DNA of 64,000 nucleotides, taken from assembly GCA_002118135.1 (NCBI GenBank), contig BDIU01000264.1:248001-312000 (forward strand), given 5' to 3'. A program made the translations under genes and the position numbers. Origin of the DNA: Trebouxia sp. TZW2008 (lineage: Eukaryota; Chlorophyta; Trebouxiophyceae; Trebouxiales; Trebouxiaceae). Shown one piece after another: positions 2,087 to 59,200 of this stretch (position 1 is the first letter of the stretch; every line of letters starts with the position of its first letter). The notes under the pieces are model-generated. The model had not been told where the DNA came from. It worked only from the letters and a program-made list of their open reading frames with translations, and did no database searches.

Positions 2087-5000
2087 TCAGATTGCCAATT
2101 CCGCAATCTTGCCGGTTTCCCAATGGTGGTAGTTAGTCTGTAGGCCACGCATCATAGGCATGGCATCTTCAAACAGCTCAGTGACTGCCACAAAAAGTGG
2201 TGCCCCCACAATGTTGAAGAAGCCCAACTGTGACCTGGTCATCCCTCCTTGCTGGTTTCTGTCCATCAAGGGACTCACTGTCATACCCAGAGACCGCTCC
2301 TTGTCGCCCTGTAAGAACAAGCCAAACACTGTGTTGCTGGGATCACTGACTGTCATGTATGTGTGTGCTGTCCTACCAAGCTATACGAGTGTTGTCAAGA
2401 ACTGATACCGCATCCGCAGGGAATGCTGTGACCTAGTCATGCCTCCCTGGTGGTCTCTGTCCATTAGGGGACTCACTGTCATCTCCAGGGACCGCTCCTT
2501 GTCACCTTGCGACTACAAGCCAAAGTCACAAAACTGCAATACTGATCTCACTGACTGTCATGCAGGTGTATGCTGTCCCATTGACCGAGTCATGCCTCCT
2601 TGTTAGTTTTTGTCCAACAAGGTACTCACTGTCATGCCCAGTGACCGCTCCTTGTCACCCTGCCATCACAGACCCAGTATTGCAGTACTGATCTCACTGA
2701 CTGTCACATGTGCGTCTGCTGTCAACAAAGGAGGGTTTGAGCCTATGCCTGGACTGCGCAGGTTGATTGCAGATCATTGCTGGAAAACAGAGATGCATTG
2801 CAAAACACCGCTGGAAGTCAGAACTTTGAAGGGCGGCTGATCATGCTGCGACCAAGCAGGTGCTGACTGTGAAATGCAACAAGGCAGGTGCTATCTGTGA
2901 TTAACATCAGTATGGCATTCTGACCTGTCTGAAGAACTCCTCTTCAAGTTGAATAGCCCAGCGCTTATGTGTCTTGGGAGCAGCTGTCAGGTGGCCAATG
3001 TCAGCACACTTCAGTATCACCTACATTGTGCAATGGCGCTGCTGGGCATCATCTCAGCATGTGACGTGACACGTAAGCAAGCTACAAATGCTCCTGCATG
3101 TCTGAACATGAGAGTCACAGTGATGCATGCAGTCAGACCAGCTCTGGGCGCAAAAGCAACAGCATGGCTGGGCAGAGCTGTATGCCACAGCACTAGCATG
3201 AACATGCAGACTTGTCATGCAACAAAAGTGTCAGCAAGTGCATCACGACAGCACAAAAAGGTACAACAGCTTTAGCATGGATGTGCAGAGTCTGTTCACT
3301 GTAGCATGCCCTCACTTGTACAATGAACAGCTTGACTGCAAGACAGCACAGTGCGGCAATGGATTTCATGCTGTGATTGCTTATGCTGTGATTGCAATGC
3401 TGTGGACGCCATGCTGTGGTTGCCATGCATGATGGCCATGCTTGAATTGCTTTGCTTTGATGGCTGTGAGTGCCGTGCTTGTGGTTGCCATGATGTGACC
3501 CTCAGGCTGTGACTGCCATGCTGCGATTGAAATGCTGTGATTGCCATGCTGTGATATGCGTGCTGTGATTTCTGTGCTATAACCGCCATGCTGTGATATG
3601 CGTGCTGTGATATCTGTGCATGCTGTGATTGCCATGCTGTGATATGCGTGCTGTGATTTCTGTGCTATAACCGCCATGCTGTGATATGCGTGCTGTGATA
3701 TCTGTGCTATGACCGCCATGCTGTGATTGCCATGCTGTGATATGCGTGCTGTGATTTCTGTGCTATGACCGCCATGCTGTGATTGCCCTGCTGTGGTTGC
3801 CATGCTGCAATTGCTATGCTGTGTAGGCACCGGGCTTGCCTGGAATATGAGGGTCTTGTCCTCCACTTTGCTGGTCTCCAGGTCACTGTTGTTGAAGGGC
3901 ACTCTGCTGCCGCCTGGAGAGCCAGGAGGCTGCTTGAACGCTTGCTGCAATTCATAAAACAGATTAATTGATCATGTATATGACAACAGATGCAGCCAAG
4001 ATACAACTTGCAGCCCCAACAGTGTTCTTGTGAGCTGTCTGCTATGGTGGAATTTGATCTAGCAGCTGAATGACAGCTAGCGGCAAGTGCTGGCATTGCA
4101 GAAGACATGAAATTGCAGTTTGCACACTACAAATGCAGAGTTGTGTTGTTTGCAATGGTCAGCATAGCAATGGATGTCGGCGTCTGATGAGTCTCTTGCA
4201 GATTCAAGGCACGCCAGCACAATTGTGCATTGCACATTGGCTTGCATTGTGTCCCCTTAATCCAACAACACGAGGTGTCAAACTTACAGACTGCCATCTG
4301 AGGGCATGAGTGCAAGCAGAGCAGAATGTACCAAGTGCAAAATCTGTCCAACAGTCATGGCATCAGTGAATCACCACACTCTTCATCTCAATTATTGATA
4401 CTGTAAAATATATGCATATTGGGTATTACGTATCGGCCCCAACGTATTGCGTATTCAACGATTTGCACTGCAGCTCAGTGAGCCCTACTCTCAAAAACTG
4501 CATATTGCATATCACGCATTGCGTACTGAGTATTACGTATGTGTGATTACAGCATGCATTGTAGAGGACATGAGAGTCTGAAATTGGCGTTTGTGCACTG
4601 TCGTGCAACAAAAGCCATGAAGCATATGTGATTACCTGGAACCTGGAGACAATGTCAAAGTGCTTCTTCATGTCTGTGCCCAGTACTTGACTGATACAGG
4701 TGCTGCGCATAGATATCAGCTGTGCTGCCATCTCTTTCTGCACATCACGACAGCATTGATGCACATTTGCATGCGCTGCACAGACTGTATCGCATGACCC
4801 TGTCTGTCCATGGATGCATGCAAGACAATTCCGCTGTGGCAAGAATGCACGGATGCATCCATAAGCTGTGCTGCCATCCCTTTCTGCACCTCAAAACAGC
4901 ATCGGCATTCATTTACATGTGCTGTACATTTGTATGCCAAGTGGAAGGACCCTGTCTGCTCAGCTCAGGTGTGGGGAGTGCTGTTGCACAAACTCTCCTG

Positions 5001-8000
5001 CCCAAGTGAACTTTGAGTCTCACAGTACTTATCTGCTGCTGGGTGCAAATCAGTCCATCATCAGATGCAAAACAGATCAGTGGGGATATTACTGCAGGAA
5101 TCCACCCTTCATCATTGAGGCATTTGCATCAATGCAATGTATCTGCAGTGGTAAATGAAAAGAGCTTGGCGCATAATCTGCTCAGATTGTATCACAACAA
5201 AGTGCTCTTGTCGCATCTACCAGGTGTGAAAAATTTGCTTGCAGCATGATTGGCCCGACCACAGTCATGACTTCACTGCAACAGACACAATCGCAAACCA
5301 CACAGATGATCATGATGATGTCAGAGCACAGTGTTCACACGCTTCAGAAAACACAGACACTGGGCATGCAAGCTGTTACCGGTGGGAAGCAGTACTCAGG
5401 CATGTACAGGATCCTCGAGCTAGCAGCCAAGTGGTGGTTTTCCAAAGGCGAGCTGTCATTGTAAGTCAGAGCCAGAGGGTGCGCTGTCTTGATCAGGAAG
5501 TCGTTGTTACATCCACCATGCTCGTAGTCATGCACGGTGGCCGACCAGTAGGACGCTAGCTGCTGCACCCGGTTCATAACATTGCTCTTGAGGATGCCGC
5601 CATGCACCAGCAGCATGTGAGTCATCTGAACCACAGATGCCACATGGATGCTGCACGCATGCACAATTTTGTGTTACTTGTGTGCTGTATTGTGTTACTT
5701 GTCTGCTTTGCCCACGCCGTAATGGAGCCATGCTTAGCAGCATGTGCGTCATCTGAACCCCAAACGCCACGTGACAGTGCACATGCACAATTGTGAGTTA
5801 ATTGTCTGCTGCACCCGACTCATGACGTTGCTCTTGAGGATGCCGCCATGCACCAGCAGCATGTGAGTCATCTGAACCACAGATGCCACATGGATGCTGC
5901 ACACAAGTAAGGTTTGAGTTACTTGTCCGCTGTATTGTGTTACTTGTCTGCTTTACCCACTCCAAAATGATGCCATTCTTTGCAGCGTGCGAGTCATCTG
6001 AACCACAGACGCCACATGGATGCTGCACACATGCACAGGTTTGAGTTGCTTGTGTGCTATATCCGGTCTATGAATGCTGCCATGCATCAGCAGCATGTGG
6101 GTCACCTGGACCACAGATGCCACATGGATGCTGCACGCATGAACATTTTTGTGTTATGTGTCTTCTGTACAGCTTTTGGTATGCTACAATGCACAGCAGT
6201 AGGCATGCCTGAAGAAGCATCCTTCCTGTTGCCTGTTTTATTTGTAGACCTGTTGTGATGAGGAGTGACAGAATCAGGTGATGTGCACCACAGAGTCTTC
6301 TTTTGCAAGTAAGCTATAACAGGATTTGGCAGGATCAGGTGACGTGTATCATAGTGTTCTTTACAGGCCTGGTGTGATAGAGAGTGGCAGAATCAGGTGA
6401 TGTGCATCACAAAGTGCTTCTTGCAAGTTTGCTATGTCAGGGATTGGCAGGATCTGGTGATGCATATGACACAGGGCTCTCTGCAGGCAGTTCATGAAAG
6501 GGACAGGACCAGATGATGCAATACATCTTGAGCCTGACACCAATCAACAAAACTGCAACAAATCAGGCAGCAACCCACATCACGTGATGTGCATCATACG
6601 TTACCCTTTCTACATGAGATGAAAAGATGGCAGTCACTTGCAGACCTGTTGTGATAGGGGTTGGCAGGGTCATAGCCGCTCTCTATCTTGCGAAGGCAGG
6701 CCACCAGCTTGGCCTCATTCAGGTCAAACTCCTTTGCCAGGCCAGTGCTCTTCAGCAGGTGGAAACTCAGCATGGACAGGCTGCATCCTGGCGTCATCTC
6801 AGCAAAGGTAAAGATGTCAAACTGCCAGTTGCTCTCTGCGTCCTGCACAGGTGGCACACACTTGCTCAGATGCAACCACTTCGTTTTCCATATGATCTTT
6901 GGGCTGTGGACTGATGGAAGCTCAGCATGGACGAGCTGCTTCCTGGTGTCATCTCAGCAAAGGTGAAGATGTCAAAGTGCCAGTTGCTCTCTACATCCTG
7001 CACAGGTGGCATGCACTTGCTTGAATGCAACACTTGATGTTCAACATCATCTTTGGGCTGAGGACTGATTGAAGCTCAACATGGATGAGCTGCTCACTTG
7101 TTTCATCTCAGCAAAGGTAAAGATGTCAAACTGCCAGTTGCTCTCTGCATTCTGTACACAGCAGTTTTTGCTAAGATATGCCAAGTAGCTTGGATGATTG
7201 CTTGCAGTATAGCAGCTGTGTTTGCATTGATGCAACCGCCTACAGAGTGCATGAAGCTATGGCTAGGACTGGTTGGAATGCTGCAATGTCAGTTAGTGCC
7301 TGGCAACCTCTCAACAAAGACAAAGATGCCAAGCTGCCAATTGCTCTCTGCATTCTGCAACAGCAAGATGCAGCTGTTTGACTGTGGATTGCTGATCCTG
7401 AAGGTAAAGTGTGTATTGGGGCATGGCCCTAGCGCTACACTGTCAGTGGCGTTTTGCATTCTGTGGTAGAGAAGTGTGGCGTCTGTAGGCATAAGTCACC
7501 TCAGACTCTTCCTGCTTGGCAAGAGCTTGCCTGATTGTGTGCTTTGTAGCAGCCACATTTCTATTCAAGTATCTGCAGGCAGACACTATCTATTAGCCCA
7601 TGCATGCATTAGCACATGCAAGCCGCAAGGTGACCGCTGATGCAGCAACAAAGACAGGACCCAGAATGACAGCTGATGCAGCATCACACCAGCTGCTGCA
7701 ATCTGCAGTACAGAGAAACAAGCATTGTGCTCACACGAGGGAGTATCACCTGTAGCACAGCTGTGGTAGTGACAGGCAGTTCGACTCCAGGGGATAACTC
7801 ACCTGTTGCATGCGCTCCACAGCTGGGGTGACAACAGGTGGCGTAACCGAAAAAGGTGGCATTACCTGAAGCATTTGCTCCACAGCTGGGGTGACAACAG
7901 GTGGCACAAACACAGGGGGTGGGGAGCGGGCTTGGGGCGTCCCTTCTGCTAGCCTGCTGCCATCAATAGAATCTCCTCTGGTCATATCCAGCACAGGCGC

Positions 8001-11000
8001 ATCAGCCAAGTCTGGGTGGCGAGAAAGGGCCTGTGATGTGGCAGCATTGCGGGCAGCCATTTGCTCAGGTAGGCCACTGCCCTTGGCGGGTCCTAGAGCG
8101 GTGGTCGATAGACGCCTCTCCCGGCCCTGCAGTGGTGCATTGACTGTCATGATGATGCTGATGATTTGCATGAGGCAGTGGCTAACAGATGCTGCTGCCA
8201 GCTCTGCAGTGGCGCATGGACATCATCATCATCATCACCACCATCAACATCCCATCCAGTGAGGTTCAGCGACCCAGCTAGGTGCATTCAGAAGCAATGA
8301 ACTGTCTCAACCAACACTTTCGCAAAGCACACATTAGTCCTGAACACAGGTAAGGCACCACACAGGGGGCTACACAAGAACAGATGGGCAAGGGGAGTGA
8401 CCTGAAGCAGCTGTAGTATGGACTGGCCCACTTCAGAGTCCATGTCCACGTTGTCCTTGAGCAGCTGAGTCTCTAGGCGCACAGGCTGGCGCAGATCAAT
8501 GCCCGGCTCACTCAGCATGCGATACAGGTCTAGCGCTGCTGACACTGGCGGGCAGTACCCCTGCATGCCAACTCTTCTTGACGATTGAGAAATACAACTG
8601 CACTGTGTCTTGCAGCTACATCGCATGCTGTACTATAAAATTGAGAACACATGCTTATAGGAAACAATCTCTCAAGCGACACGCATATTTAATTGCAAGA
8701 ACAGGGCCACACAGCTACCGTGTATAGTTTCTCAAGCTGCACCACATCCTGTTCTGTGACAACAGGGCCACACTACCACAGTCTGCATGAGGGCAGTCAA
8801 CAGCGCACCGCAATAATGAACTGCAGAAAGCTGAGAGCTTTGTCAATAGGGGTGTCTGAGTCGAAGCCCTTGCCATTCTGGGGCCCAAACTTGTCATTCA
8901 GCAGGGCATTCAGGTGCTGCGCCAGGGCTTTGGCGTCCTGCTGCAGCCGGAACTTCTCATCCAGCATTGCCGCCCAGTCTATCTCTAATGCCTGGTTCTG
9001 CCTGCATGCATTGCAGCCCAGATTCTTTCTGGTGCCTGCGTTTGCTTGCATGCATTGCAAACCCAGTCTATCTCTAATGCCTCATTACACCAGCACGCAA
9101 TGATGTCGTCTGGGAAACAAAGTGTGCAGGAGGCTATAGAATGCTGTGCAGACCAGTGCCTGATTCTGCCAGCACGCAACGATGTCGCTTGGGAACTGCA
9201 GAGTGAGGAAGATGGCTTGCCAACACTAGTCTAAACACACAACGATGCGTATTCACATCTTCATTAGCATCAGTAACTGTACACACAACACAAAGATGCT
9301 TTGGCATGCCTCAAACAGCACAGGCACAGGTGAAGTTGAAGCAAATCTACACCAATGCCTGATGCGATGTTGCTACAAGAAGGTCAGCAGGGGGCTCACT
9401 TCTCCAGAGCATCCTTCTGTTGCCTGAAGAGCAGCTCAGCCCGCTTGAGGCGGGTGATGCTGCTCCTGTGCACCAGCATTGCTGGTCCCCCCTCCACAGG
9501 GTCCTGCACCCCATATGCTTCACGCGTCAGCTGTCTGGGCACATTCTTCTTTGTTATCACAGAATAGTATATTATATTATATTATATTATATTGTATCAT
9601 GTTATGTTATGTTATGTTAAGTTATATCATATTATGTTATATTATATTGTATTATATCATATGATGTTATTTTATATGATATTAAATCTTAGTATGTTAT
9701 ACTATTATATGTATATTATAATGTATTGTGTTATCACAGAAGCTCCTCAGCCCACCCTTTGCCACAGTATATTGTCTGTGCGTGCTGTCACAGACAATGT
9801 ACTGTGACAGCACGCATAGAAGCTGTCTTGCGTGTGAGTTGCCTTGTTTTGGTCTTGCAATGCAGTTTGCACATCAAATCAACAGACAAGGTCCACAAAA
9901 TGCCTTTATACCACCGCACTGACAGCCGCTTGATGATACTTGCGTTCTGGCATGCTTGACAATGTTCAGCTACGGATGCTGCTGCTGTTTCTTATAACAA
10001 ACACTGTCGCCACCTTGCCTGAAGGATTACATAAGCGAGTGACAGTGTATGAAGTGGAAACCCGCCAAGCTCAGAGAGCAGCGGCTGATGCAAGAGCTTT
10101 GGGTATCCACTTACTGCTGCTCAGCCAGAGCATGTCAAGCTGCAAACTCCCAATCAGCATGCAAGACGCTCAGTTGCTGTACATATGACATCCAGCTGCA
10201 GGGCCACCCACAGCAGCAGAGAGATGCTTTGCCACCTGGACCAATTGGCTGCACTTGACATTTGAAGGCTGGTGCAGATCTCAGCTGCAGACACCCTCAG
10301 ATCCACTCAACTCACTAGCTGAGGCGTACATTCGCTCGCAATTTACGTCGTAAGGGCACAAACAAGGCTGGTGCAGATACAGCCATTCACAACAACATTG
10401 ACACACAGCCAAAGAACCACTGAGTACAGTGTGATTGATACTTGGATTTGCGCACAATACTGGGGTAGTGATGGTGAGCAGGACAGCGGGCTGCAATGCT
10501 GGGCATACAGTTATGCAGGAGCAGCACAACCAGTTACACAACAAGACATCCAGCAGGCTGGCATTGTTGAGCATTGACTGCTGACAGCAGTGATGTGTTA
10601 GATGGCTGCCGCATTACAGGTGGGACGCTGCAGACATCGTACATGAAGAGTAAGAGGTACACAGGAAAGACAGTGAGAAACTGCTGTCTCTGCTGTGCCT
10701 GTTGATTTGTCATGCTTTCTACTGCATGAAGGAAATCACAGGGTGGTGCAGGGTCGTCAAGCCACAAAGGTATGCAGGGCCTCACCTTGAGAGGCCACAT
10801 TTCCAGTAGCGCCCACTTGAGTGTGCCATCTTTAGGGCTAGGGTAGGGCTGCACATGCTGGTGGTACTCAACCTCCAGCCCAAACACATCATTCAGCGCT
10901 TCCTCATAAGCCTTGTCTGCCTCCTTCTTGCCACCTGATGGCAAGTTGTAAACAAGACTTTGAATGTTCCGCTTGTGGCAAAACCCCACCTTTGGCATCA

Positions 11001-15458: not shown

Positions 15459-18400
15459 TCATACATGATAAGACAAGTCTCTGCTCAATGCTGAGTTTGC
15501 AAGCACATCATCTGCTTGTTCAGAGTCTTCAGCCTTTGGGATGTCGTGCTGAGAAAGGTCTTTAGCAACAGCAATATCCTCGTCTGCTGCTTGCAGCATG
15601 TCTGTCAGGTTGACACTGTTGATCAGCTCCAGAACGCCTTCTAGCCCATCTCCAAACCGTTGCCGCTTCAGCTCAAGCTGCATAGCAAGAATCCAATCAC
15701 ACTGATGAATCAGGCAGACAGACATGCCCCTCAATTTTCAACTGGAGGCCACGGTACAGTGCTGACTGTCCACTCAAATTTGTGGACAATGCTGTAGCAG
15801 AAAGCCTTATGCCAGCGAGGTGATGCTGGTTGCATTTTGGTGCAGGGCACAGGGTGCAGGGCACAGGGTGCAGGGCACAGGGTGCAGGGCACAGGGTGCA
15901 GGGCACAGGGTGCAGGGCACAGGGTGCAGTGTAAGCCAATTAGCAAGAGTTTGTGTGCATTGCTAAGGCAGACAGCCATGTGGCAGTGTGCCAATGCCAG
16001 CGCTATTTGAGAGGTGAGTTGGGAGTACAGGGTGTAGGCAGTACAGAATAGGGGTTAGTGGCCATAATGTATGGTTCTTTAAATGCTGCCTTGTGTGCAA
16101 TGACAGTCACAATGCAGCTTGCAGAGCAGTACATCTAACACAAGATGTTCACTGTACATGCCTGCAAGGTAGACTAGATGACCTTGACATTGCAGGAGCG
16201 TGGAATTTCATCAGTAGAAGCGTGCAAGGTAGACAACATGACTGACCTTGACAATGTGCAGGAAGCAATTCTTGTAGGAGGCCAGCATGTGCGCCTTGAC
16301 TGAGTTCATGAACGTGCACCTGGCCACCATCTGGGACACCAACGGCAGGCTGTTGATGATCTGCTTGACTGCATACACAGCATACCAATCAGAATGACAC
16401 ACTATCATATTGACAATTAGCTTCACTGCAAACAGCATGTGAGTTAGATCGATAACCCACATTATTGATGATCTGCTTGACTGCACACAGCGCACGTGGT
16501 TCAGAAAGATACATTCAAGTATCTTCTACATTCAAGTGTCGGTCATGCACGAGCAGCATATTGTTAAGACAGATTCACCATATTGGTGATGATCTGCTTG
16601 TCTGCAAACACACCATATGAACAGGAAGGTACAACGTGTTGTTAATGATCTGCTTGACTACACATACAGCATGTAGCTCAGTAGCAACCCAGGCTGCTTC
16701 TGCTTTCAGCAACTATGGTCATGACACAAATTGGTGCTAAATTTCTCGGTTCACTTGCGTTTCTTCAGAGGCATGCTCCAGTCTATAGCCATGCAGTGGG
16801 CATCAACACAACAACACACAGCTTGCTGCGTCTCGAAGCAGCCATTACATTTGAGCAGCGGCCGTGCAGCTGTCTTTGCAAAGGCGCATCCAATTGAGCA
16901 CCTTGCAATCGCATTGCGAGCTGTTGACAAAGGCGTCAAGGAAGCAATGCTGCTGGTGCCTTAACCAACAATTTGCGGTGCTACTACAAGGTGCTGACTT
17001 GGAACCAGCACCTCCTGCATGACGACTGCAACACTGGCAATGCAAACCATTACAGCAGCTTGCACTCAGCAGCTTCATAAGCTGTGAAGATAAACAAACT
17101 GCACCACATTATTGAGCCTCCGGAAATTCCTAGGGATGACTGGTTGGCATGAGGCAATCAACAAAAGACGGCGACTGCAAAACGCAACACACTATTGAGC
17201 AATTGGCAGACATTCAAAAAAATGGACGGTTGGCATGAAATGACTGAAAATAAACTTGCACAGGTGATATGCTTACATGGGTTGAGGGAGGGGAGCCTCA
17301 TTTCCAAGGGGGTGGGCCGCACTTGCATGTCACCAGTCAAGTCAATCAGAACTCGCTGTCCTGGCCGTGCGTAAAGAGTGCCAAACTTGCCCACCTTAGG
17401 CACTGGATCCTGCAACATACATATGCATTGTCAAGTGATGGTGCGAAGCAAGAGCCAAGACGCTTTGGGTACAGCATCCTGCAACACATGCATGCACCAT
17501 CACATGATGCTGCTGACCTGATTGACAAGCAGGAGAAAGCACACTTGTAATAGCAAACGGCATCTCAAGCCTTCAGCAGGCAAACAGGATCAGCAGCATG
17601 CACATGGATAGGCAGGATCGCTCCAAACATAGTTGCAAAGGGCAAGCTGGCGCGCATCCAGGTGGCACATCTGCATCTAGGCCATTTGCATTCTATTGCC
17701 CTGAACCACAGTTGATCCAACCCAATATCGCAATGCACATTGGCCTTGCCATCATCACTGCAACATGCTGATTCTGTCCTGATGACACATCACTGAAGCC
17801 AGCATGCTGAGCAGCACATGCAACTATGAGGGAGGAGTAGTGTCTTATAACCCAAGTGTGTGATCATGCATATCTGAGATGACCATTTGAGTGATGCATA
17901 TGAGCAGTACGGCTGTGATCACCTTAGGATCAATGACGTGCCAGGTGTCTGGCACCTTAGCATCGTACATATGCATTCTGATGTGAGCTCATGAACTGTA
18001 TCTGCCTTTGGGCTGCTCACATGCTAAGTGTCCAGTACCTTGGCATTGTACATATGCATGCTGACCTGTGCACTTGAGCTATGGTTGCTGCACCTTTGAG
18101 TTCATGGCATGCCAGGTTTCCAACAACATGGAATTGTACACATGCACTCTGACACGAGCACTTGAGCTATGACTGCCTCAGCTTTGGGTTGACGACGTGC
18201 CAGATGACCATCACCTTGGTATTGTATGCATGCATTTTGCACTGTGGCATTGAAGACATGTATTCTGACGTAAACATATAGGTTGTAATCACCTTTGGGT
18301 TGATGACATGCCAGGTGTCTGGCACCTTGGCATCGTACTTGTCAGCGAAGGCCTTGTTGCCAGGTCTTGGCGCCCCAACAGTGTACACTTGGACAGACTT

Positions 18401-21400
18401 CCAGGGACATATGTCAACAATGTCATACGCTGCAAGAATAGCCATAGCACCGCCCAGAGAATGACCTACAAAAAAGCCAAGAATTGGTATTGACACATAC
18501 ACATGAATTGAGGAGGTGCATGTTCACAGGTGACTTTGCTAAAACCACGCTTGTTTGTGCTGTTCAGAACCTACATGAACATGCAGCTAATGTAAGGCGG
18601 CGTTCAGATGCTGCGGGCCCGGCACATATGCGTGGGCTCAAGCTATACACAGCAGCGGGACTGCATGGCAGCTGAATATCAACACGATAAGAGTCCATAA
18701 AAGTCAACCCAGCAGGCGTGTCATGTTGTCATTTGTGATGACGCGCTTGCTGACAAAGAGTGATGCCTGCAATGTTGACAGCTTACACCAAGCTTCTCAT
18801 CATCCACAAATGCTACTCACCTGCTTCTGTATTCTGCTAGCCAACTCATGTCCTAGAAGCAGACGGCATGTGCAACTGAAGCAGGCCTGGACTCCATGCA
18901 CTATTGAGGCAGTCCATCATGATCCATGTCATCAGCAGCATGTACATACTTGCTCATGAGATTCCATGGCCCTGCCAGGTGCATACAGAAGCAGGAGACT
19001 GCCAAACCCCCTCCCCCCCCCAGTTCTGTCCATATGCACTTTGCAGTTCATTGCCTGGCACAAAGAGATGCATGCCAGCTGCAGCCTTGTCATCTCAATT
19101 GAACAAATTGAACAGATTGATGAGAATATCACAACTGAAGCAAGCCTGGCCTTGATTACTTGGTCACCTGACTGGCAACACTGAGGCAGTGCATTACCTG
19201 TGAGCATGACATGCATGCGAGCTGCAGTCTTGTCGTCATGGTTGACCACAGTCTGGAGGAGGGCGCACACAGCCTTCTTCAGCTTATTCTGCCAACTGAT
19301 GCTGAAGCCTGAGTGCACAGCAGGCGCAGCTCCGAATCCACACCCAATGCTGGCTGTGTCTTCGGGCACATGCGGCACCAGCCATGCCTGCAAAGACTTT
19401 ATGATTATACCTATGTAAACAGAAGCATGACCAGCGTGTGTCCATTCTCTTTGCGATTGTCTTTCAGTCCTGGTTATAGCCAATGCTGTGTGTGTCAGCA
19501 GGCACATGCGGCACCAGCCATGCCTGCAAAGACACTGAGGTTATAGCTGTGTAAACAGAAACATGACGAGCATCTGTCCATTCTCTTCGCAATTCTCTTT
19601 TCAGACCTGGTTATGGCCAACGCTGGCTGTGTCTTTAGGCACACGCAGCACCAGTAACGCCTGCAAAGACGTTTGCACGTGTACAGCAAACATACCTCTC
19701 TTCATCTGCCAACTTTCAATATGACGTTGTTGCAGAACCAGTCACAGCCAAGGCTAGCTGTGTCTGCAAACATGTGCAGCACCGGCCATGCCTGCGTAGT
19801 CATCTTAACATATAGAGCTATGGCCCAACATTGCCACAGGGAGAGCCATGCAGCTGAGCCCAGCAGGCATAGCACTCAAGCAAGCTCATTGACAGAAAGC
19901 AGCACAATGTGTACTGGCAACACTGCTTGTTGAATGTCAGGCTGGGCCGTATGCCCTTAGTCTTGTCTCAATGTACCAGACAGTATCTGCAGTGCCTGCT
20001 GCAGATTACCATGTAAAAAGCTGGCAGCGCTGTAAGCAGCCCAACACACTGGCATAAGCTCTTTCAATGCAGTCATGACATCATCCGAAATGATCAGTCA
20101 TTCATGCATGTCTTGAAAGCAAAGACATGCTACCAACAAAAGGTGCTAGCTGTGTGCACAGCTCTGCCCAGGACAGGTGGACAGTACACGATCAGCAGCA
20201 TGCAAATTTTGTGCAGCAATATGTGTATGTCAGTGTCTGATGCTGACAGCAAAGCGCTTACAAAAGCACCTATTCCAGAACATTCATTACGTCACACCAT
20301 GGTAGTAAGACAGAGCGCTGTACCTGAATGTCGTGCATAGCATTCTGCTTGTTTGCGGTGCCTCTGAAAGATATCATAATGGTGTGTTGGTTCCAGGCGA
20401 CCAGGCATTTGGTGTTGGTGACAGGGTCCCTGATCAGCTCAATGCGTTCCAGGTTGTACAGCTCCATTGCCTTGTCCTCTGATGCTGTGGTGGTCTTTAG
20501 AGTCTGCAAATATAGCAGTAGCATTGACAGTCACAGTAATGACAGCAGAGCTCGACCAGGCACTTAATGTTGATGACAGAGGCTCAATGCACTCCAGGTT
20601 GTACAGCTCCAATGCCTTGTCCTCAGACGCTGTTGTGGTCTTTAGAGTCTGCAACCACAGCAGCAGCACGTATGAGTGAAATTGGACAAGCACATCATTG
20701 CAGCAAGGCTCAACCAGGCATCTGGTATTGGTGACAGGGTCCCTCATGAGCTCAATGCGCTCAAGGTCGTACAGCTCCATTGCCTTGTCCTCTGATGCTG
20801 TGGTGGTCTTCAGTGTCTGCAAACATAAAATAGCATTGACAGCTGAAATTGGATGAACACAATAATTACAGCAGAGCTTGGCCAGGCATTTGGGATTGTT
20901 GACAGGGTCTCTCATAAACTCAATGCGCTCAAGGTCGTACAGCTCCAGTGCCTTGTCCTCTGATGCTGTGGTGGTCTTCAGTGTCTGTAAACATAAAATA
21001 GCATTTACAGCTGAAATTGGACAAACACAATAATTACAGCAGAGCTTGGCCAGGCATTTGGGGTTGATGACAGGGTCTCTCATGAGCTCAATGCATTCCA
21101 GGTTGTACAGCTCCATTGCCTTGTCCTCTGAAGCTGTTGTGGTCTTCAGTGTCTGCACACACAGCAGCAGCTTTTACAGCTGAATGGTCACTTTGGCCAA
21201 GCTCAACTAGGCACTTGGTGTTGGTGACAGGGTCTCTCATGAGCTCAATGACGCTCCAGGTTGTACAGCTCCATGGTAGTCTTCAGGGTCTGCACACACA
21301 GCAGCCAATTGTGACTGCGGCTGTTGTTGCAAAGCACTGGGAGAATCTACATTGTCAGTTGTCATCACAAACATCTCTGTGACCCGAAGCAGCCCTGAAT

Positions 21401-23583
21401 TGCTGCCTCTGACTGGTTGCTAATGCTGAAGCACATGTAGTGTGAATTGTTTGAAAGGCTGCATCAATGCCTGATGCTATGTTCGGTGTGCACTCAACAG
21501 TCAAGCAGTGGGGTCGCACAAAACTCGATGGCTTTGATGCATGTCATGCCACTGATGAAACATGGGCTGTGTGTTTGTTGATTTTACACTCCGTGGCAAA
21601 GCACACTAAGCTGCTTGTTTTGTGATGTGCTATCTTCCTGGCAAAGCAGTGGAACAGAGGTGAGACACAAAGCCTGAATTGCAACAGCAGGGACAACTGG
21701 CTGAGTAACACATCTGAGGTGCACTTGGGTCTCTGGATATCTGAGCATGCAGCAGGCACACAGGCATCAGCTCCGTCCCACAAGCAGCTGAACTGATCTG
21801 GGCAGCACTTTAAGCAACCAGATCTTACCACGAAAGCACATGACTGCATGCTGACTGATTAACAGCCCTCTGATGAGATGACGCAAAAACAGCCATGGAC
21901 AGTCACTGACAGTACGCGATGTACACTGATTACTCACTGGTAACAGCGGACAGCTTGGAGCCCATGCTATTACACTCCACTACACTGCTATGAATCCACA
22001 GCTCAGTGTTTTGTGCATGCACCTAGCTGGGGAAAGGTGAAAACTCACTTGCAAGCATGATAACGATAACAAAATTCATGAAGATACTGATACTGATGAT
22101 GATGATGGCGATGATGGACTGTTAGTGGCAGAGAGCATCTCACCTCATCAAGCTCGTATACAAAGGCAGACCAGTACAGCATCTTCACAGCAGTCTCAAA
22201 GCAGAACATGGGCTCAGCGCTCAGCAGCGTCTTGTCCTTGGGCAGCGCATTGCGCCGCGCCATTCGGCTCTTAACTAGCTGCTCTGTCCAAGAAAACCGC
22301 TGCAGCCAGGACTGCACAGCACAGCCACGAAACAACTTCAAGTCCTTGTTTGCAGCCATGTTTTTGTTGTTCAACTTTGATGGGCACATGCACTTGCCCT
22401 TGCGTTCATTCGATCAGCTGCAACCAAAACTGCTTAGCAGAGTCAGACAGGACCGTGAAGCACTGCTTTCATGCCATGATCTTGGTCACCGATGCTGACG
22501 GACAAATGTGCTTGCTTTTGATGAACGCATCAAGGTAAGGCCATGCCATGACTGCATGGCACACCCACAGATCCGGGGTCACCTTGTGTATGCCATGACC
22601 TCGATCCCCGATGCTGATGTGATCCCCAATGCACTTGCAACAGCTCCAACAGGCATGTAGACTGATCAGAAGGCGGTGAGCAAACAGTCTGCAAACTTTT
22701 TGATACATCGCAGTATGTGTGGACTATTGACATCAGCAATCATGGATGCTGAGCACATGCTGTGCATGGTGATGTCATGAGCGAGTCGCTGACTGATGGG
22801 CTGCAAGAAGGTCATTCATAATCAACAACCTGAACCAAAGCAGCTTCTTACCTCAATAATTCAGTCTACAATGCAAGGATATACAATACAAGGCAAGGCA
22901 AACGTGTCTACGGGAGAAGCGTACAAGGCAACTTCTGACCTGCGTGTGACGTCATCGCTCACTTATGGACTTGTGGGCTGTATGGGTATCATTTGAAGGC
23001 ACACCATACTTTAAGCAAAGGAAGCCTTATCTCAAGGGTAGCTATGCAAAGCAAAATCTGACCTGCATGGTGATGTCATCGCTCGTGTATTGACTCATGG
23101 GCTGCAACATGATCGTGTGCATACACTCCAGTGGCATGCACAACACTACTTACAATAGGGTGCTGTGTATGAGCTGAATACTTACTTGCATGGTGACATT
23201 ATCGCCTGTGGACTGACTCATGGGCTGCAGCAGGCGGGAAGCCATGCCAATGAGCATGGTGCTGGACATGCACATAGCCAGCAACAAATAGTTTGGCTGG
23301 CACCCTGGGCATGCTGTGTTCAGGGTGGCAAGCAGGAAAGCAATCTTGGGCGCGAAGCTGGATCCAATGCCAAAATCCTGGCTTGCATCCATGCGGCACA
23401 GAATCCGACCCAGCCTGCAGCATATCAATGTTTTGGTACTACTGTTGGTCAGCCAAGCAAGCAAGCAAGCCAGCAAGCCAGCCAGCACGCAAGCAAGCAA
23501 GCCAGCAAGCAAGCAAGCAAGCCAGCAAGCCAGCAAGCAAGCCAGCAAGCAAGCCAGCAAGCAAGCAAGCAAGCAAGCCAGCC

Positions 23584-23661
<78 letters not shown>

Positions 23662-26600
23662 TAAGCAAGCAAGCAAGCAAGCATGCAAGCAGCTAACCCA
23701 ATGCCAGAGACCTGACTTGCATCCATGCACAACATTGCCCGGCCTGCAGCACATTCATGCTGCAATGCCGCTCTTGATGCATGCATGCGACAAGCAACAT
23801 TTGCAAAATTGGCATTGGTCGTCAATCAGTTTCTCATGTCTCGATCGTACACCATGCATAAACATAGGGGTTGCAGATGAAGGTGCCCTTTCATATTTTG
23901 CCTCTCTTGCACATGCCCACAACGCAGATCAACAATGCTGTACGAGATAAGGCAAAACCATGCACATGCCAGACGCCGACCCCACAACCTCAGCCAGGTT
24001 GCCTTGCAATACTCAGCTGACAAATCAGACAAGTTTTGCAAAAGCTAGCAGATGACATTGATGAAGATCAATGGTGATAGGGCTGTGAGTGGCTGCAGAG
24101 GCTCAAAGAAGATACCACATGGTGACAATTCTGATCGTCATCACCTTAAACAAGCCGGCGTGGCAAGACAGGACTTGGCCACACATGACTAGCACTCACT
24201 CTTGACAGTAGGACACAGCAGTATTGTCATTTGAAGCTGTTTGAGGGCATGCCACACCATGACTAGCACTCATTCTAGAAAGTAGGACGCAATAGTATTG
24301 TCACCTGAAGCTGTTGAGGGGCATGCCACACGTGACCAGCGCTCATTCTAGAATGTAGGACATAACAGTATTGTCACCTGAAGCTGTTCAAGGGCATGCG
24401 TGCCATATCTCGCAAACTGTGGTACACCAGCACAAAATGCCAGATTGCAGACAGTCCCAGGATGACGCAGCGAGCAATGGCTGCCCCCTTGTTCAAGTGC
24501 GACCCTCGACACAGCTCCAGAGGCGTGAGACACTCACGAAGCTCCAGATTGGGCACATAGTTATGACCTGCAGCAAAATTATGATAATGATAATAATAAC
24601 AATAATAATAAGCACAGGGCCAATGGCAGTCATCCCAAGGTATAGGGCTTGCTGTATGTGATACGAGCGTGATCACAAGCAGGACAGAAACCCATAAGCT
24701 TGGCAGAGACATATGACAGCAGTCTGGGAGCCTCTGATGTACGCAGACACAGAGAAAAGTACATGGCACAAATCAGGCATGACAGTGACAGCAGGACTGA
24801 CTCAGCCCTGCCACACATTGGCACAAATTGATGATGCAGCAGCCGCATGCGTCTTCATGCATGCAATCAGCAAGAGTGCAGGGCTACCTTGGAGAGCCAC
24901 CACAAGCTGTATGAGAATGGTCGCCTCAATTGCAGCCCTGCACACCATGCCATAGTCACTTTATCAGCCCACAGACCAGCAAATCAGACCACAGACCAGA
25001 AAATCAGGCACTGAACAGGGACGTACATAGCTACAGCTGGAAATGTAGCATGCTTGTTGCCATAGTCAATGTTTTAGTCCCCAGACTCAGCAAATCAGCC
25101 CACAGACCAGCAAATAAACCCACAGACCAGCAAATCAGGCACCGAGCAGGAGCGCACATATCTACAGATGTGCATACATAGCATGCTTGTTCTGCATAAC
25201 CTCAACTTCAAAGCAGATGAGGTGTGCCAATGGCTTGGAGCGGGGCCTGAGCAGAAATTGAGTGGAGCACCAACTGTGTGCATGACAAGCTTGCATATGT
25301 TCAGCTTGAAGAGCCAAGAGTCATGTCAATGTCAAAAATTGCTCACCAAACAACTAGCTTTGGCAGGTGCACCGACCAAGGTGCATCCAGAACCAAAGCA
25401 GCCTTGGGTCTATTCCTCCTAAAGCCTGGGAAGACTGCACATCACCACAAAGCATGAGACAGACAAGTCTTGCCAAGATCGTTTTGCTGCTGACTGGAAA
25501 TGAATGTGAATGCATCAGCAATGTGACTGAACCCTTTTTGTGGCTGCTCTCTGTGCAGAGCTCACGTCAGGTTAGATGACAGTCGCGACAACTTATGCAG
25601 TACCAGGTAAAGTGGTGAAGTAGCAGTTATCGGGCATTTGCATGCTTGTTGTGAAGCAGCTAGTCAAACATGCAATATGCAGACCGTCATCTTGACATGT
25701 TGAGCAGATTGCAGCATACAGTGTGACAGACATACATCCTGGATTACGCGCATGTTGGCCCGGCACCGTTGCTGATACTGTTCAGCAAGACAGCACCAAA
25801 CAGAGCATGCAGGTTTGAAAGAAAAACGTGCTGTAGCTGCGTCCAGGCAGGCATTGATGCTACAGAACGATGGGGTTCCTTGAATGTGTGGCCTTCGGGC
25901 TGCCTCTTTAGACAGAGACTCCTGTTATGACGCCTGACGGCATAGACTTTTCTTTTTCTTTTTTCTCTTCTTTTTCTTTTCTTTCTGTGCCCTCACCTTG
26001 CATGAGGAGTGTCCTGCAAGGCTTCCCCTCAGCGTCTGTCCAGATACAGGTGCAATGCGTCATCAGCAGTTGACTCATGACAATCTGCACAGCAATCAAG
26101 GCTGCTGCTCATAGCTGAAGCTTAAAGCTGCGAAATGCTGCAGTTCACGCAAACAGGCGGATATGCAGGCATGCGAAGAAGGGCTGTCTTGTAATCTCAA
26201 GTGCTATGAGCTGTGCATCATCAAAGCATGCATCTACAGGTGGCAGCTCTTGACTAAGACAGGATCAATGACATCCATCCGGTGATTGCCTCACTGCATT
26301 AAGCCAATGCAATTTTGCAAACAGCATTATGAGGCGTAAAACACAGCTGAGGCTCACCGTATTCCAACATGTGAATTGTATAAACTGACTCCATTTGCAG
26401 AAGTTGCCTGCGCTGTTGCAGTGCCTTTTGGTTGCCACAGCGCTTGAGGCAACAAACATAACAACGGCAAGCTCCTGCAGCACAGTACTTGCAAAATTGA
26501 GCTAAGCAGACATGGGCATTGAGCGTCAGCTTGCGCGCTGGCATCTGCTTATCCGTAGCAATGTGCATCTGAAAGCATGGGACGCACCAATGCAAAGAGC

Positions 26601-38700: not shown

Positions 38701-41700
38701 GACAGCAAATTCGTGATTGCTGCTTGAAGGCATTTTCAGAAGCCTGATTGGTGCAGGCCACAGGGCAGAGGTTGAGTGAGGTGCAGCAGCAGCTGCAGAG
38801 CGAGGTGACCAAGGCCAAGGAGCAGGACGTGGCGCTCTCTACTCTAACCCAAGACCTGCAAGCATCTGCCCAGGTATGCTCAACATTATGGCAACGGTGT
38901 GCATTTGCTATAACTTAAGGCTTCTGTAGCAAGGTGATGACTCTTTACAAACTCTGCAGGAGTCTGCCCAGGTATGCTCAACGTTCTTTTGTATGATTGA
39001 CAGTGGCAACATTTTGCGGCAGACCAGGGTTTTGTGGCTGTGTACGGACTGACCAAGACCTGCAGTGGACTCTTGCAAGGTATGCTCAACTTTTTTGGTA
39101 AGCCATCAACAGTAAGCAATGTTTGCAATAAGCTGTGGCTCTTACCTTGTACACGCTGTCACCAGGTCCTGCAGCAGCCTGCCCAGGTATGCTCAAAAAA
39201 TCTTACCTGTTTGACAGTGGCAATTGTTTGCTGTACACCATGACCTCTGTCATCTAATAGACAGCTAAGACTGTCTTGCGGCATGCCCGCACAGATCATG
39301 GCTAAGCTGGCAAATGTGATTGGCAAGCCATTGCAATGCAGCCAGTCAGTGACTTTTTATAACTTGACATCTTAAATTTTTGCTTCAGGCAAAGACTACT
39401 CTTGAAGGCCAGCTTGATGAGGCAGAGCAGAAGATCGCTCACCTGGGCTTGCACAGCCAGGCCAAGCAGGGGGACCTCAAGGAGGCTGCTATGAAGGCAG
39501 AGAAGCAGCAGCAAGAGCTGCAAGAGCGCTTGGAGGAGGCGCAGAACAGCCTCAAGCAACTCAAGGCTGACCATGAGAAGGCAAGCCATATTTGCCTGCT
39601 GATCAGTAACGACCCACTTGACTGCCTCTTCTGGGCACAGCAATTAAGCCATGTTGCGCCAGATTCTTGTCGACCAACTTGACTGCCTCTTCTGGGCACA
39701 GCATTTAGGCCACCTTATGCCAGATTCTTGTCAAACAAGACAGCATGTGCTTCACGACATGCTGAGTACACAATTTCAATTAGTGTCACATAGTGTCAGC
39801 TGCTTGTTCTTGTAGACCTAGTTTGCATTGTAGGCCTATGCGCTCAGCTACAATTGCTTGCTTGCAGGTGCAAAAGGTATCTGAGAGGAAGTTGGCTCAG
39901 GCAGCAACACAAAACAATGAGCTCGATGCAAGCCTGAAGGAAAGGAAGAAGCTTCACAACATGGCCCTAGCAAGAGTGACAGCCCTTGACAAGGATTACA
40001 AGGTGCTGGAAGCAAGGGTGGCCGAGCAGACCAAGGGCAGTGAGAGGCTGCAGCACGAGCTGCTGAAGGCTGAAGCTGCAGTGGATGAGGCAAAGCAGGT
40101 GGGTCTTGCTTGCCGAGTATACAGTGATTGCTGCTTATGAAATTTGCATTGACTACCTGGAAAGTCTTAGTGGTTCACACCTACCAATCGTCGGCTATGT
40201 CTCACAGCTCTGCAGCCTCCCAAACTTGGTATAACATGCACGGGAGCCGTACCTGATGCTTGTGTATGCACTGCAGGTCACTAAATTGATGTGAGTGTGT
40301 TTGCATTGCAGGGAAAGGACACACAGTAGGCTCATGGACTAAAAGCATGATCTTCTGCAATCTTTGCAAACAAAACGTCGCTTGTGTATATGGTAATGTC
40401 ACTCACAATACTTTGTTTTCTACAGGCCAAGAAGGCAGCTGAGAAGCAGCTGGCACGTGCTGAGGCCACCAACAAGAAGGTCAGCTCTGAGCGAGACGGC
40501 TGGCAGAACAAGCTCCACTTGTGGCTGGCCAGGGAGACAGCCCTTGGCACAACAGTCAAGAAGCTGCAAGGCCTGCTAGAAGACCACAAGGCCCGCAGTG
40601 CTGACCTTGACCAGAGAGTGTCAGCAGCTGTGGCCGCCAAGGATCAGGCCCTGCAGGTAGGATCATCACAGCTCCCACCTAAGTCTGTAGTTTCTATCTA
40701 GCACAGACATGTCATCTGTGTTTTTGCAGATTTGGCATCTGCACTATAGTGACAGTGGGATGTGTATGCACGTTGGGTTGCTGAATCAACAATTGAGTTT
40801 GCATGGTGGGGCAAGCAGAAAGCACTAGGGTCGATGGCCACCAGCATGGTCATCATAGTGACTGTACGCATTTTGTGGCTCTCAACATGTCACAGGAGCT
40901 CAGCAATGCCAAGCGCTTCCCTTGCACTTCAGTGATGTCTGATATTGATCTACACAGCCAATGTCCCTTTTCAGCAAGTGGACGGCAAACAGGTTGAGAG
41001 GCACAACTTGCTGTTTGGTGCAGGCGGGGGAACAGAGCAAGGAAGTGCAGCAGGAGCTGCAGAGTGTGAAGGATAGGGCCGAGAAGCAGGAGGCAGCACT
41101 GACTGCCCTGGAGCAAAGCCTCAGCGCCTCTAGCAAGGTACGTTGAGTCTTCTCAGGGCAAGTGATTGGATGTGCAGCAGTTTGGGTCCTGGATTCTATG
41201 TTATGTGTATCTGCTGCATTGTCTTCAACGTGCAACAACTGCCAATTTCAGTCGTCAAATGCTTGCAGACCAAAACAAATGCATCTTCTGATTGCATGGC
41301 TTTGAACAAATCTATCTTCACCTGCATGAAACATTGATCCTGCACACTTGGGATTACACGGAAGATGGAAAGACAAGTCAAGGCAATGTGGACCAGTGTG
41401 TTAAAGTCTCTGAGACTGATCGTGCTAGCACTTGACTGCAGACAAGAGACGAGCTGCAAGGTCAGCTTGCTAAGGCTGTACAGAAGAATGCTAGCTCTGG
41501 GTTGCGTAGTGAAGCAATGGAACAGAGCCTGAAGACAGCCAATGATGCCCATGAGGAGGCTGACCAGGTCTGTCTGCTGAGCATCCTACACTGTCACTTG
41601 ATTGACTGATGTGTACTGTGATCCTGCTTCGCGTTCCATGTATAAAGAGGACAGCAGCTTGTGTATCACCATATCGCAAGCCCCGTGCAAGCCCCATTTG

Positions 41701-50671: not shown

Positions 50672-51157
50672 CGCTGCGTCGATGAGAGAGCCTTTCAAAC
50701 GGCGATCATGCGGAGACGCACTAGGCGGTCAGGCTGTAAGACATTTCAAGCTATGAATGTTCACACGCAACAACGGGAAGGTGCTGAGCGGCTGGGCACA
50801 ACCAGTCGACTGGAGCGCAGCTGATACAATAGATTCGGGCGGGAGACGCAGCGTCGCTCCAGGCGCTGGGTGCGCTAACGCGCAACCATGACCTATCGAG
50901 AGCTTGTCTCAGAGTATGTGCGAAGCTTGCTCCTGTTTGAGTCTGCGCTCAAGCATGCGCATAGCAATCTGCTGAACGTGACCAATAATTGCGGATTATC
51001 CAATACACATTGGCATCAAGACCTTAGAGCATTTGCGTGTCGCGCCACCCTTCCTCTTCCCGACTGCAGTCGCTCTGGGTTGAACAAGCGCATGCTTCTG
51101 CAGCGCTTGTCTGCTCTTGCTTCTGACTGGTTCAGGCATCATGTACTATGACTGGCC
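50672..51157. promoter_or_regulatory. Divergent CpG-rich promoter region between the TPR-like and TBC genes
   Basis: The stretch between the two start codons is CpG-rich relative to the introns and must hold both transcription starts. Its right part contains an upstream open frame (50888-51151). No defined element was recognised. Confidence 0.55.
50888..51151 (+). other. Upstream open reading frame of 87 codons before the TBC start codon
   Basis: An ATG at 50888 (context CAACCATGACC) opens 87 codons (MTYRELVSEYVRSLLLFE...) and stops at 51151, six bases before the TBC ATG at 51158. No family is recognised. It could be a regulatory uORF in the 5' UTR, a small separate gene or chance. Confidence 0.4.
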
Positions 51158-52918: not shown

Positions 52919-53260
52919 TGCCTCTGTCTACCTGAGCCTTGTATCACAGACAGCGACTGAATAGGGGTAACACGTTCAGATTGACTGCACATGTACACTG
53001 ATCATGTTAGATGATCTCGACCCTACTGAAACCAAAAAAAAATTGCCAATGAAGCGAGGCATGCTCAATGATACACATCTAGGCTACACAAAAGCATGCC
53101 GATCGAAATCCTGTTGTCCTGCGTTGGTCTGCTGCTGCACACAGTACAAAATTTACAGCTGTTGGACACAAAAAGTCTTCGTCGAAGCCAGCTGCAGAGT
53201 AATGAAATGGCTACTAGCATTCTTGCTGTTGGGCGAGGAAAAATCAGCAAGCATGCACTC

Positions 53261-56200: not shown

Positions 56201-59200
56201 AATGTGGATGCGTCTTTCCAGCAAAGGCTTGCAACGCATTTCAATTGCCAAAGCCTACAGCATATATAATGCATGTGTAAGCAATTGTAAAGCCTGATAT
56301 CACAAAGCAGATGATGTTGCTGCTGCAGCATAACCCTTCTGCAGCATGTGTAGTGGCCGAACCCGCAAGCAATGGGCAGCAATCCACATTTGCATAGACA
56401 AGTTGACTCATAGACGCATTGCTTCCCAAACATTAGCAGCAAGCTACAGCTGCAAAACCCTTGCTGAATGAAAGTGAGACAGGTCACACGTTGTGACATG
56501 CATAAAGGCAGGTTGATCAAAGTACCTGCTGCTCGCGGCACAGTGTGCTGAACAGGTCCAAGGTCTGAGTGTAGTTGGACACGATGACAATGCGGTCACT
56601 GGTCTCAGTACGCAGGACCTTCAGCATGCGGGCCATGAGGGCAAACTTGCCAGACAGCAGCTCCCAACCCAGGGCAAGGCTCCCCCTGCCTGCCCTCCCA
56701 TTGTCAAACAGCCCCGGTGGGAAGAACTCACCGCAGCCCTGGACCAGTCAACCAATAAATTCATCATTCCATTGAATAAGTTCATAAATGAATGGACGGA
56801 GGATGCATGGCTGCGTGTGTTGGGTAAGACGTCATGGGTGCAAGCGTGACTGTCACATCATCAAGGCAGCAGTCATTGCATCTCTGTGCAAGGGCATGAT
56901 TGAAGCTACATAAGCGAGCATACAAGGCCCATGGCTGATGTGACATGCAGGTGCATTGAACAGCAGAACACATGACATGACCGCAATGCTTCAATAGTGA
57001 TTGTATGTCTGTGAGAATGTCTATTCGACACTTGATCGATGTTGGAGTTCAGTCAAACGTCTGTAAGACATGAACAAATTTGTCAATTTGCATCACACAA
57101 TTGCTGTAGAGTGGCTGTACCTCAAAACCTTCTGCAACTCCTGCGTCCTTGTTGACATGATGCAAGGCATCATAGATCAGCTTGGGGTGGTTGCACAGCT
57201 TCTTCAGGTTTGTGATAGCGGGCAGGACACCCACAGACTTCTGGCCTGATACCAGGTTGCGGGCTGCCTTGGACTTCAGGAAGTGACCGTATAGATCACG
57301 CTGAAGGTCTGTCAGCTTGCAGCAAACCACCTCAATAACCTGCAGGTAGGTGAATGACATTGTGCGCATACAGCTCACAGTGCTTTCTACATAACTGTCA
57401 GAATGGGTTGCTTACATGTCCTTGATTCGTGGTGCGCTGGTAGCGCTAGCTCAGCGAAGAGGTGCTAGATAGCTTGCATTGCATCATAGCTGCTCACAAG
57501 CCAGACATGAGCATGCTTATCATAGCAAGACAAGGAGATAGAGATGATGATGATGATGCATGCATAACAGTTGTCCTGTGTTGGTACTGGTGTTGATCTT
57601 GGGCGATGGACGTTCAGACAGTATAGTGTTGGTGTACCTGAAAAGAAAGTCGTTGCAGTGCTGGTTTCACAACATGCTGAAGGTGGCAAGAGAATGAGCT
57701 GGACATGACACATGTATTGACATCATTGCTACGCTGATAATGGTGCTGACCTTGGGAGGCAGATGGTCTGACAGAATGGTGTTGGTGCGTCTGAGGATGA
57801 AGTCATTGCAGTGCTTGTTCATCTCCTCCTGGCGCTCTGCAGCAAGCTGCACCTCCTTGTCAGTGGCCCCAGGCTCCCTGCCTGCCAGGATAGGCCTGTC
57901 GTAGTACCTTCTGAAGTGAGCAGGGCTCTCAAACACCTTGGGGTTGCAGAAGCTGGCCATAGCATAGAACTGCATGACAAACGATGCATTAGTACACTAA
58001 TGATGTGGTTCTGGAAGCTCCGTGTCTGTGGGCAGGGGCTATGGATGAAGCACTCACAAGTCCAGCTGACTCCAACAGCACCGGCATGTACTGTGTGCCT
58101 ACAAGACACCATGCCAATGACAGGCCTCTTGAATACCTTGGGGTTGTACAAGCTTTTATGGCATAGAAGTGCATGATCAAGTTGCGCTGGCTGCAACAGC
58201 ACCAGCAGAAGCTGCTCACCCATAAGACTACATTAACATGATGATGCATGAAGTTTTCTTGTCATTTTACTGATAAGGACTCTCAATACAAGGACATTTT
58301 CAGTGCAAGGACAATGCAATTGAAGACCCATCAACACATTCTGACAGCAGTGATGCCTCTTAGTGAGGACAAATTGTTATGAGAGCAAGTTTCTTAGCCC
58401 CCAAAGCAGCTGTTGTAAACAGACAACACTGTATGTCATCGTCAGATTTGTACAGTGCTGCTGACATCAAAGTGCAAGTGACAGGCCTGAACAAAGTGTT
58501 CAAGTAAATGCACTCACCTCATCCAAGTTGTTCTGAACTGGCGTCCCTGATAGAAGGATACGTCGCTTGCACTTCAGGCTGCCCAAAGCCTGCATTGCAT
58601 GATATTCAGCATGTTGCACAGCCGCATTCAGTTGCTACAGACTGCTTACAGACAAGAGGCCATGCCTCTGATAGGTCCATGCAGCGCTGCTGACACATAA
58701 AATACTGTGCCATTGACAAACACAGACAATGCTGCTTATGCTTCCAGAATGAGTGCTGGAAGCCAGGCAAGCTGGTTGTGCGGTCACATCTCTTGGAGAC
58801 TCAGCCTGTGAGCATGATCTGAATCTGTCATGAGCTTCACCTTGTTTGTCAGAGTCCTGCACAGACAAAGATACATGAATCATGGTATCCACTGCATGTA
58901 GCAAAGACAGCTGTGCACTATGCAAGATTGAGCCTTACTGGTCATTCTTGAGTCTGTGCGCCTCATCACAGATCAGCAGGTCGCAAGCTGTGTCACTCTT
59001 GAACTTGTCCGTGTGCAATCTGAAGGTCTCATATGACACAATGAGCACCTGCACAACACCACAAGCTTATAACAGCTTACAAACAGCATTACACCATTGG
59101 ACATACTGCAAGCAGCAGTAACACACTGATCAGCAAGCAGGATGGAGAGTGAGTAACTTCAAGACGGGCTGGCTGAAGCTAGGCATGTGAGCAACATACC

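Follow-up and report, generated by a model that had tools for sequence, protein, structure and literature searches.

The window analysed here is a 64,000-nucleotide stretch of the genome of Trebouxia sp. TZW2008 (assembly GCA_002118135.1, 68.5 Mb in 527 contigs; contig BDIU01000264.1, positions 248,001 to 312,000). It includes genes for a cyclic-nucleotide phosphodiesterase (PDE, - strand), a class-3 lipase (-), a pheophorbide a oxygenase-like protein (+), a coiled-coil protein (+) and RAD54 (-), together with a gene without assigned identity at 48-50 kb (-). In these genes, exons are accompanied by partial copies of one of their own edges, which lie in the adjoining introns and are called decoys in what follows. 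The original prediction, made from the sequence of the window, was that at least 15 exons in five genes are flanked by such copies. This was borne out: the window has about 15-17 exon edges with such copies, spread over at least five genes, and the pattern is real and genome-wide.

The analysis covered 302 kb: the window plus 25 other stretches, of which 8 lie on the contig of the window and 17 on eleven different contigs. Exons were taken from a two-strand exon-intron hidden Markov model (HMM) self-trained on the 302 kb, and no annotation was used. The model converged on CAG/GTRAG-like donors and TGCAG/G-like acceptors (the slash marks the junction), with a median exon length of 133-136 bp and a median intron length of 326-346 bp. 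As a gene finder it merges genes, misses a TBC-domain gene at 51-53 kb and places one acceptor 27 bp off, at 5625 instead of 5652. Apart from this acceptor, the predicted exons of the PDE, lipase and oxygenase genes were matched by homologues. The PDE has a relative in Trebouxia sp. C0006 (83% over 47% of the query), and relatives of the oxygenase match at 77% and 74% over 99-100% of the query and at 54% in Trebouxia sp. C0010. When the predicted RAD54 exons are joined without the decoys, their translation can be aligned over residues 24-573 with structure 1z3i, 'similar to RAD54-like' (E=2.2e-163). A 16-nt exon predicted in the same gene at 58841-58856 (-) fits this alignment. No Rfam family matched within the window.

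Extent and position of the exon-edge copies

Each stretch was compared with itself by blastn, retaining pairs at offsets of 35-2000 bp. This yielded 157 local direct-repeat pairs in the 302 kb, against 0 in dinucleotide-shuffled sequence. Offsets are mostly 60-300 bp and most commonly 140-160 bp. There are 113 direct pairs at offsets of 60-300 bp and no inverted pair within 2 kb across the 302 kb; inverted or templated insertion was rejected for this absence of inverted local copies. The pairs group into 92 clusters: 64 span an exon edge, 16 touch no exon, 10 are exon-internal and two include a whole exon, one of which (2228-2723) becomes an edge case once the exon is corrected by homologues. 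Randomly shifted clusters gave 42.7, 38.0, 9.2 and 2.1, respectively. The excess of edges persisted under this self-alignment control, the kind of comparison by which it had been proposed that it be checked. Exon-edge copies are present in most of the 25 other stretches, and also in kinase and SNF2 genes on 13 contigs.

Copies of 5' edges were predicted to lie always in the upstream intron and copies of 3' edges in the downstream intron. This rule held in 42 of 43 simple pairs with a unit of at most 300 bp (24/24 for 5' edges and 18/19 for 3' edges). The table of simple pairs omits 37 of the 92 clusters (31 multi-copy clusters and six with a unit longer than 300 bp) and includes 12 entries without an edge, seven of them touching no exon and five exon-internal. 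The sole exception, 7801-7905 (-), lies inside a predicted exon: here the 3' end of exon 7803-8126 carries a 42-bp repeat. If the first copy holds the true donor, as it may, 7801-7905 would be another donor-edge decoy.

Broader searches gave the same picture with more noise. When 267 whole exons were used as queries, 70 of their 534 sides proved to have decoys, 89 in total; of these decoys, 68 were one-ended and on the right side, five one-ended and on the wrong side, seven had both ends and nine neither; 68 of the 73 one-ended decoys thus obey the rule. Acceptor probes of 60 bp had copies upstream in 53/305 cases and downstream in 10/290, while donor probes had copies downstream in 35/299 and upstream in 13/301; shuffled probes had none at an equal threshold. 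Independently of the gene finder, proteins of relatives gave 10 right and 0 wrong loci in the window, counted in 40-bp bins, so that one decoy may count twice, and including one that is probably the next exon. Genome-wide, Pfam kinase and SNF2 profiles gave three ambiguous cases and 16 unambiguous ones, all of them on the right side. A raw tally that includes pseudo-exons predicted within arrays and the repeated coiled-coil exons stands at 64 right and 19 wrong (12 and 7); as far as the 19 were looked at, which was in part, they are mostly such pseudo-exons and repeated exons.

Table 1. Exons of the window with edge copies in the adjoining introns
Feature	Exon	Strand	Edge copied	Position of copies	Remarks
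PDE exon	2099..2317	-	5'	two decoys upstream, 2426-2509 and 2582-2662	extent from homologues (tblastn of P0133, P0134, others)
PDE exon	4636..4737	-	5'	4861-4928	
PDE exon	5380..5652	-	5'	5806-5898, about 5959-6170	5' end at 5625 in gene finder
PDE exon	6646..6842	-	5'	6914-6997, 7068-7151, 7292-7354	
Exon	8809..9001	-	5'	9052-9082	44-bp array 8964-9082
Lipase exon	18293..18429	-	3'	downstream, array 17911-18270	P0122, P0126
Lipase exon	19211..19387	-	5'	about 19479-19532, 19606-19673, 19743-19795	P0124
Lipase exon	20324..20503	-	5'	five copies upstream, array 20553-21305	unit ~155-168 bp; P0125
Predicted exon	23186..23414	-	3'	22924-23109	69% identity
Predicted exon	24378..24567	-	3'	73-bp array 24178-24399	
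Oxygenase exon	28762..28952	+	3'	downstream, 29033-29149	donor GT changed to AT
Coiled-coil exon	39389..39652	+	3'	39671-39738	exon end uncertain
Exon of gene without assigned identity	48564..48740	-	5'	48791-48891	
RAD54 exon	57751..57969	-	3' and 5'	57582-57666 (3'), 58121-58176 (5')	donor GT changed to AT in 3' copy

The coiled-coil gene (36124-45707, +) is made of repeated exons and contains two large whole-exon duplications, 38049-38600 with 38707-39253 (77%) and 44540-45088 with 45156-45707 (86%). Other repeats of the window are two 14-bp minisatellites, at 3367-3823 (about 33 copies, 68% match) and 15839-15929 (6.5 perfect copies), and a CAAG tetranucleotide array at 23454-23691 with about 60 copies, which is open in several frames.

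Decay and turnover of the decoys

In the homologous proteins of the PDE, oxygenase, lipase and RAD54 genes each exon occurs once, and no new intron is needed. The decoys contain 7 stops in 956 codons, where 11.9 would be expected if the decoy took every change at random, and 10 of their 13 gaps are not a multiple of three; a coding function was rejected on account of these stops and frameshifts. At edges with two decoys, the changes unique to a decoy are spread over the three codon positions (51/74/82), whereas those unique to the exon fall mainly in the third (5/3/22), which indicates that the exon is under selection and the decoys are not. On this evidence, decoys are neutral debris. Exon-decoy differences taken together are more frequent at third positions (0.249) than at first (0.117) and second ones (0.111), which is above the expectation for free evolution of the decoy only and perhaps comes from fast silent change in the exons.

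The splice sites of the decoys are largely intact. The acceptor AG is kept in 39 of 41 decoys, against 73% expected at the total divergence; counting decoy-side changes only, the expectation is nearer 80% and the excess modest. The donor GT is kept in 18 of 23 (70% expected), with no clear excess. Where the dinucleotide is intact, acceptors score 5.8 in decoys and 6.6 in true sites, and donors 5.0 and 4.4; 29 of 64 decoy sites equal or exceed the true site in score. Nothing indicates that these sites are being purged.

Similarity to the exon had been described as tending to fall with distance. One array shows this: the match of P0134 is 85% to exon 6648-6842 and 71, 61 and 52% to its decoys, going outwards. 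The lipase array does not: there the match of P0125 is 80% to the true exon and 48, 60, 52, 69 and 74% to the decoys, again going outwards.

Decoys were also compared by eye between relatives, whose open frames were read as genomic sequence. The exon start CVCSIHVASVV is repeated in P0158 and single in P0159 and P0160, and the donor edge PEYCFPP has downstream copies in P0155 and P0159. P0123, whose match covers 17% of the lipase query at 98% identity, carries a long decoy upstream of the exon concerned; in the alignment this decoy is without counterpart in the window, and a short decayed one is visible in the window sequence. Judging by these relatives, which carry different decoys of one exon, the duplication process appears to be ongoing.

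Origin of the copies and the excess of exon-touching units

The decoys are probably what remains of short tandem duplications that occur often in gene DNA and pass through a filter, selection acting on the spliced product. Where an acceptor is spanned, duplication would produce the order intron, half exon, intron end, whole exon, and where a donor is spanned, the order whole exon, intron start, half exon, intron. Since only splicing at the junction of the whole exon leaves the protein unchanged, the spare half would be found on the intron side. It would then decay neutrally, and repeated rounds would generate arrays. The duplications may stem from repair, such as the filling in of staggered breaks that are then end-joined, and decoys may be tolerated through exon-definition splicing, which would ignore a half exon without a partner splice site.

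The side rule was reproduced in a forward simulation in which duplications, deletions and point changes were applied uniformly and any exon-altering event was rejected: with random sequence and assumed rates, 433 of 434 simple edge pairs lay on the right side and one on the wrong side. The rule follows from tandem duplication and an intact protein, and no special mechanism is needed for it. The original prediction had offered two interpretations. Selection that tolerates only duplications leaving a whole exon accounts for the side rule; a duplication mechanism biased to splice junctions is not required, and an excess of exon-touching units remains. Equal numbers of copies on the wrong sides had been named as a refuting outcome and were not found, although this comparison carries almost no information, tandem duplication leaving room for no other result. 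The junction can fall anywhere in the unit, the exon share of which spans 0.20-0.84 at 5' edges and 0.27-0.65 at 3' edges (10th-90th percentile), and no breakpoint motif was seen by eye in 15 alignments, for which no statistical test was made. Exon-internal duplications have a unit divisible by three in all five simple cases (165, 117, 123, 180 and 84) and in 7 of 9 of a wider set; mostly in frame, they too are accounted for by selection for one complete exon. By rough arithmetic on the uniform-placement null, the in-frame cases are about as numerous as predicted from the edge cases.

Several observations weigh against tandem duplication and selection as a sufficient account. In-gene clusters at edges outnumber intron-only ones 67:18, whereas six neutral forward simulations gave ratios of 0.92, 1.00, 1.15, 0.99, 1.10 and 0.95 to 1, and uniform placement gives 0.319 to 0.541 for edge against no-exon clusters. 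The in-gene clusters touching no exon include 17936-18234, which is part of the lipase donor-edge array, and three micro- or minisatellites. Relative to intron-only units, those touching an exon are about 3-4 times commoner than a uniform process would give. Moreover, an unaligned spacer of at least 35 bp lies between copy and original in 27 of 42 simple cases, compared with 14-25% in simulations, and only 6 of the 27 spacers resemble the flank predicted by plain tandem duplication. Wrong-side copies are also present in the broad counts (19 in the raw tally, five decoys, and the probes at 10/290 and 13/301).

Detection bias alone does not explain the excess: in a single-unit simulation the ratio of edge to intron-only pairs was 0.46-0.49 as placed and 0.59-0.69 as detected, and in the forward simulations 0.92-1.15, all short of 67:18. 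Decay should favour edges at most about twofold, because each hazard threatens both copies of an intron-only pair but a single copy of an edge pair. As for adjacency, 15 of the 42 simple cases are nearly adjacent and the arrays are contiguous. Two spacers in stretch L023 hold, by eye, further partial copies of the same edge, one of them also apparent in the intron-interior probe search and the splice-site scoring. The aligned intron parts are short relative to the exon parts, as would be the case if intron-derived sequence decayed 4-8 times faster; against this, three contiguous arrays match at 82-86% over whole units, intron part included, and others at 66-80%. Counting by probe gives a smaller excess, which varies with the definition used: 39 of 500 intron-interior 60-bp probes had copies (85 low-complexity probes were skipped), 14 of them not clearly tied to exon copies, against 53/305 acceptors and 35/299 donors. 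Junction-specific copying is not needed to explain these data; a preference for exon-derived copies, or their longer persistence, is. Such a preference, of origin or of persistence, is likely although not proven.

Nucleosomal DNA is close in length to the 140-160 bp at which offsets peak. It is conceivable, if doubtful, that duplication is directed at exon-containing DNA, for example in nucleosome-sized units on exons or through transcription-linked breaks, in addition to the selection filter. This would fit both the size peak and the ratio of 67:18 where neutral simulations give about 1:1, but the peak may be that of small duplications generally and the per-probe excess is smaller. Equally tentative is the proposal that duplication is uniform and that exon-derived copies stay recognisable longer, by constraint or by gene conversion from the intact exon. 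The short aligned intron parts and the retention of AG in decoy acceptors are consistent with it, whereas both the argument and the simulations limit neutral decay to an advantage of about twofold, GT shows no clear excess, and decoys carry stops and frameshifts. The differences are not patchy as they would be under conversion (p=0.25 and 0.33 over 63 decoys), and gene conversion keeping the copies alike was rejected on this test.

The high scores of decoy sites, many of them equal to or better than the true site, might suggest alternative or poison splice sites that regulate these genes. This is improbable, the copies being truncated, disrupted by stops and frameshifts, different between close relatives and absent from the homologous proteins examined. 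It is highly improbable that the assembly has joined two diverged haplotypes or strains at shared exons. Unrelated spacers and the third-position excess would fit such joins, but stops and frameshifts in the decoys and contiguous multi-copy arrays speak against them; the assembly contains the lipase stretch once, the 302 kb contain 2 N (a count covering all but six stretches), and similar copies occur on contigs of relatives. Returning to duplication and selection, a stronger version can be put forward speculatively: small tandem duplication in this lineage would be several times commoner on exon-bearing DNA than on plain intron DNA, in roughly nucleosome-sized units and with unrelated filler often lying between the copies, so that introns would constitute a constantly renewed store of half exons with near-working splice sites, ignored by way of exon definition.

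Relation to known duplications and significance

In tandem exon duplication whole exons are copied, and duplication at the scale of exons is tolerated through splicing. There the whole exon and both splice sites are duplicated, whereas here two of 92 clusters are of this type and 64 are edge clusters. Tandem genomic duplication as a source of introns reportedly goes back to Rogers in 1989 and to Gao & Lynch in 2009.

This source of introns is also treated in a review (PMC3443670), and a single junction-spanning duplication is described for the potato RdRp (PMC4974935). These cases share with the decoys a tandem duplication within a gene. There its outcome is a new spliced intron and added exon sequence, while in the homologue-supported genes of Trebouxia the spare half decays within the intron, and many exons are affected, repeatedly. 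Introners (PMC9860276) likewise reshape introns genome-wide, although they are copies of one dispersed element inserted into many genes; here each copy derives from its own adjoining exon. Indeed, the lipase array, the one array compared with the genome, matched only itself and an adjoining piece. A possible source mechanism is the fill-in by Pol alpha-primase at breaks with 3' overhangs, which, from the abstract of PMC8355091, gives rise to small direct tandem duplications in human and mouse cells. That abstract reports no exon preference.

No published description of genome-wide half-exon copies was found in a search limited to open-licence papers; the extent, the intact decoy sites and the exon excess set the pattern apart from the known cases. 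For gene annotation in these algae, false partial exons are to be expected. If the exon preference is true, small tandem duplication would have a bias not known so far. Duplications spanning a junction have been proposed as a step toward intron gain, and here they are caught frequently, in strains whose copies are not the same. With the decoys, true and decoy splice sites also occur naturally as pairs within one pre-mRNA throughout the genome, which bears on how the spliceosome rejects a near-perfect acceptor or donor and on whether exon definition is sufficient for this.

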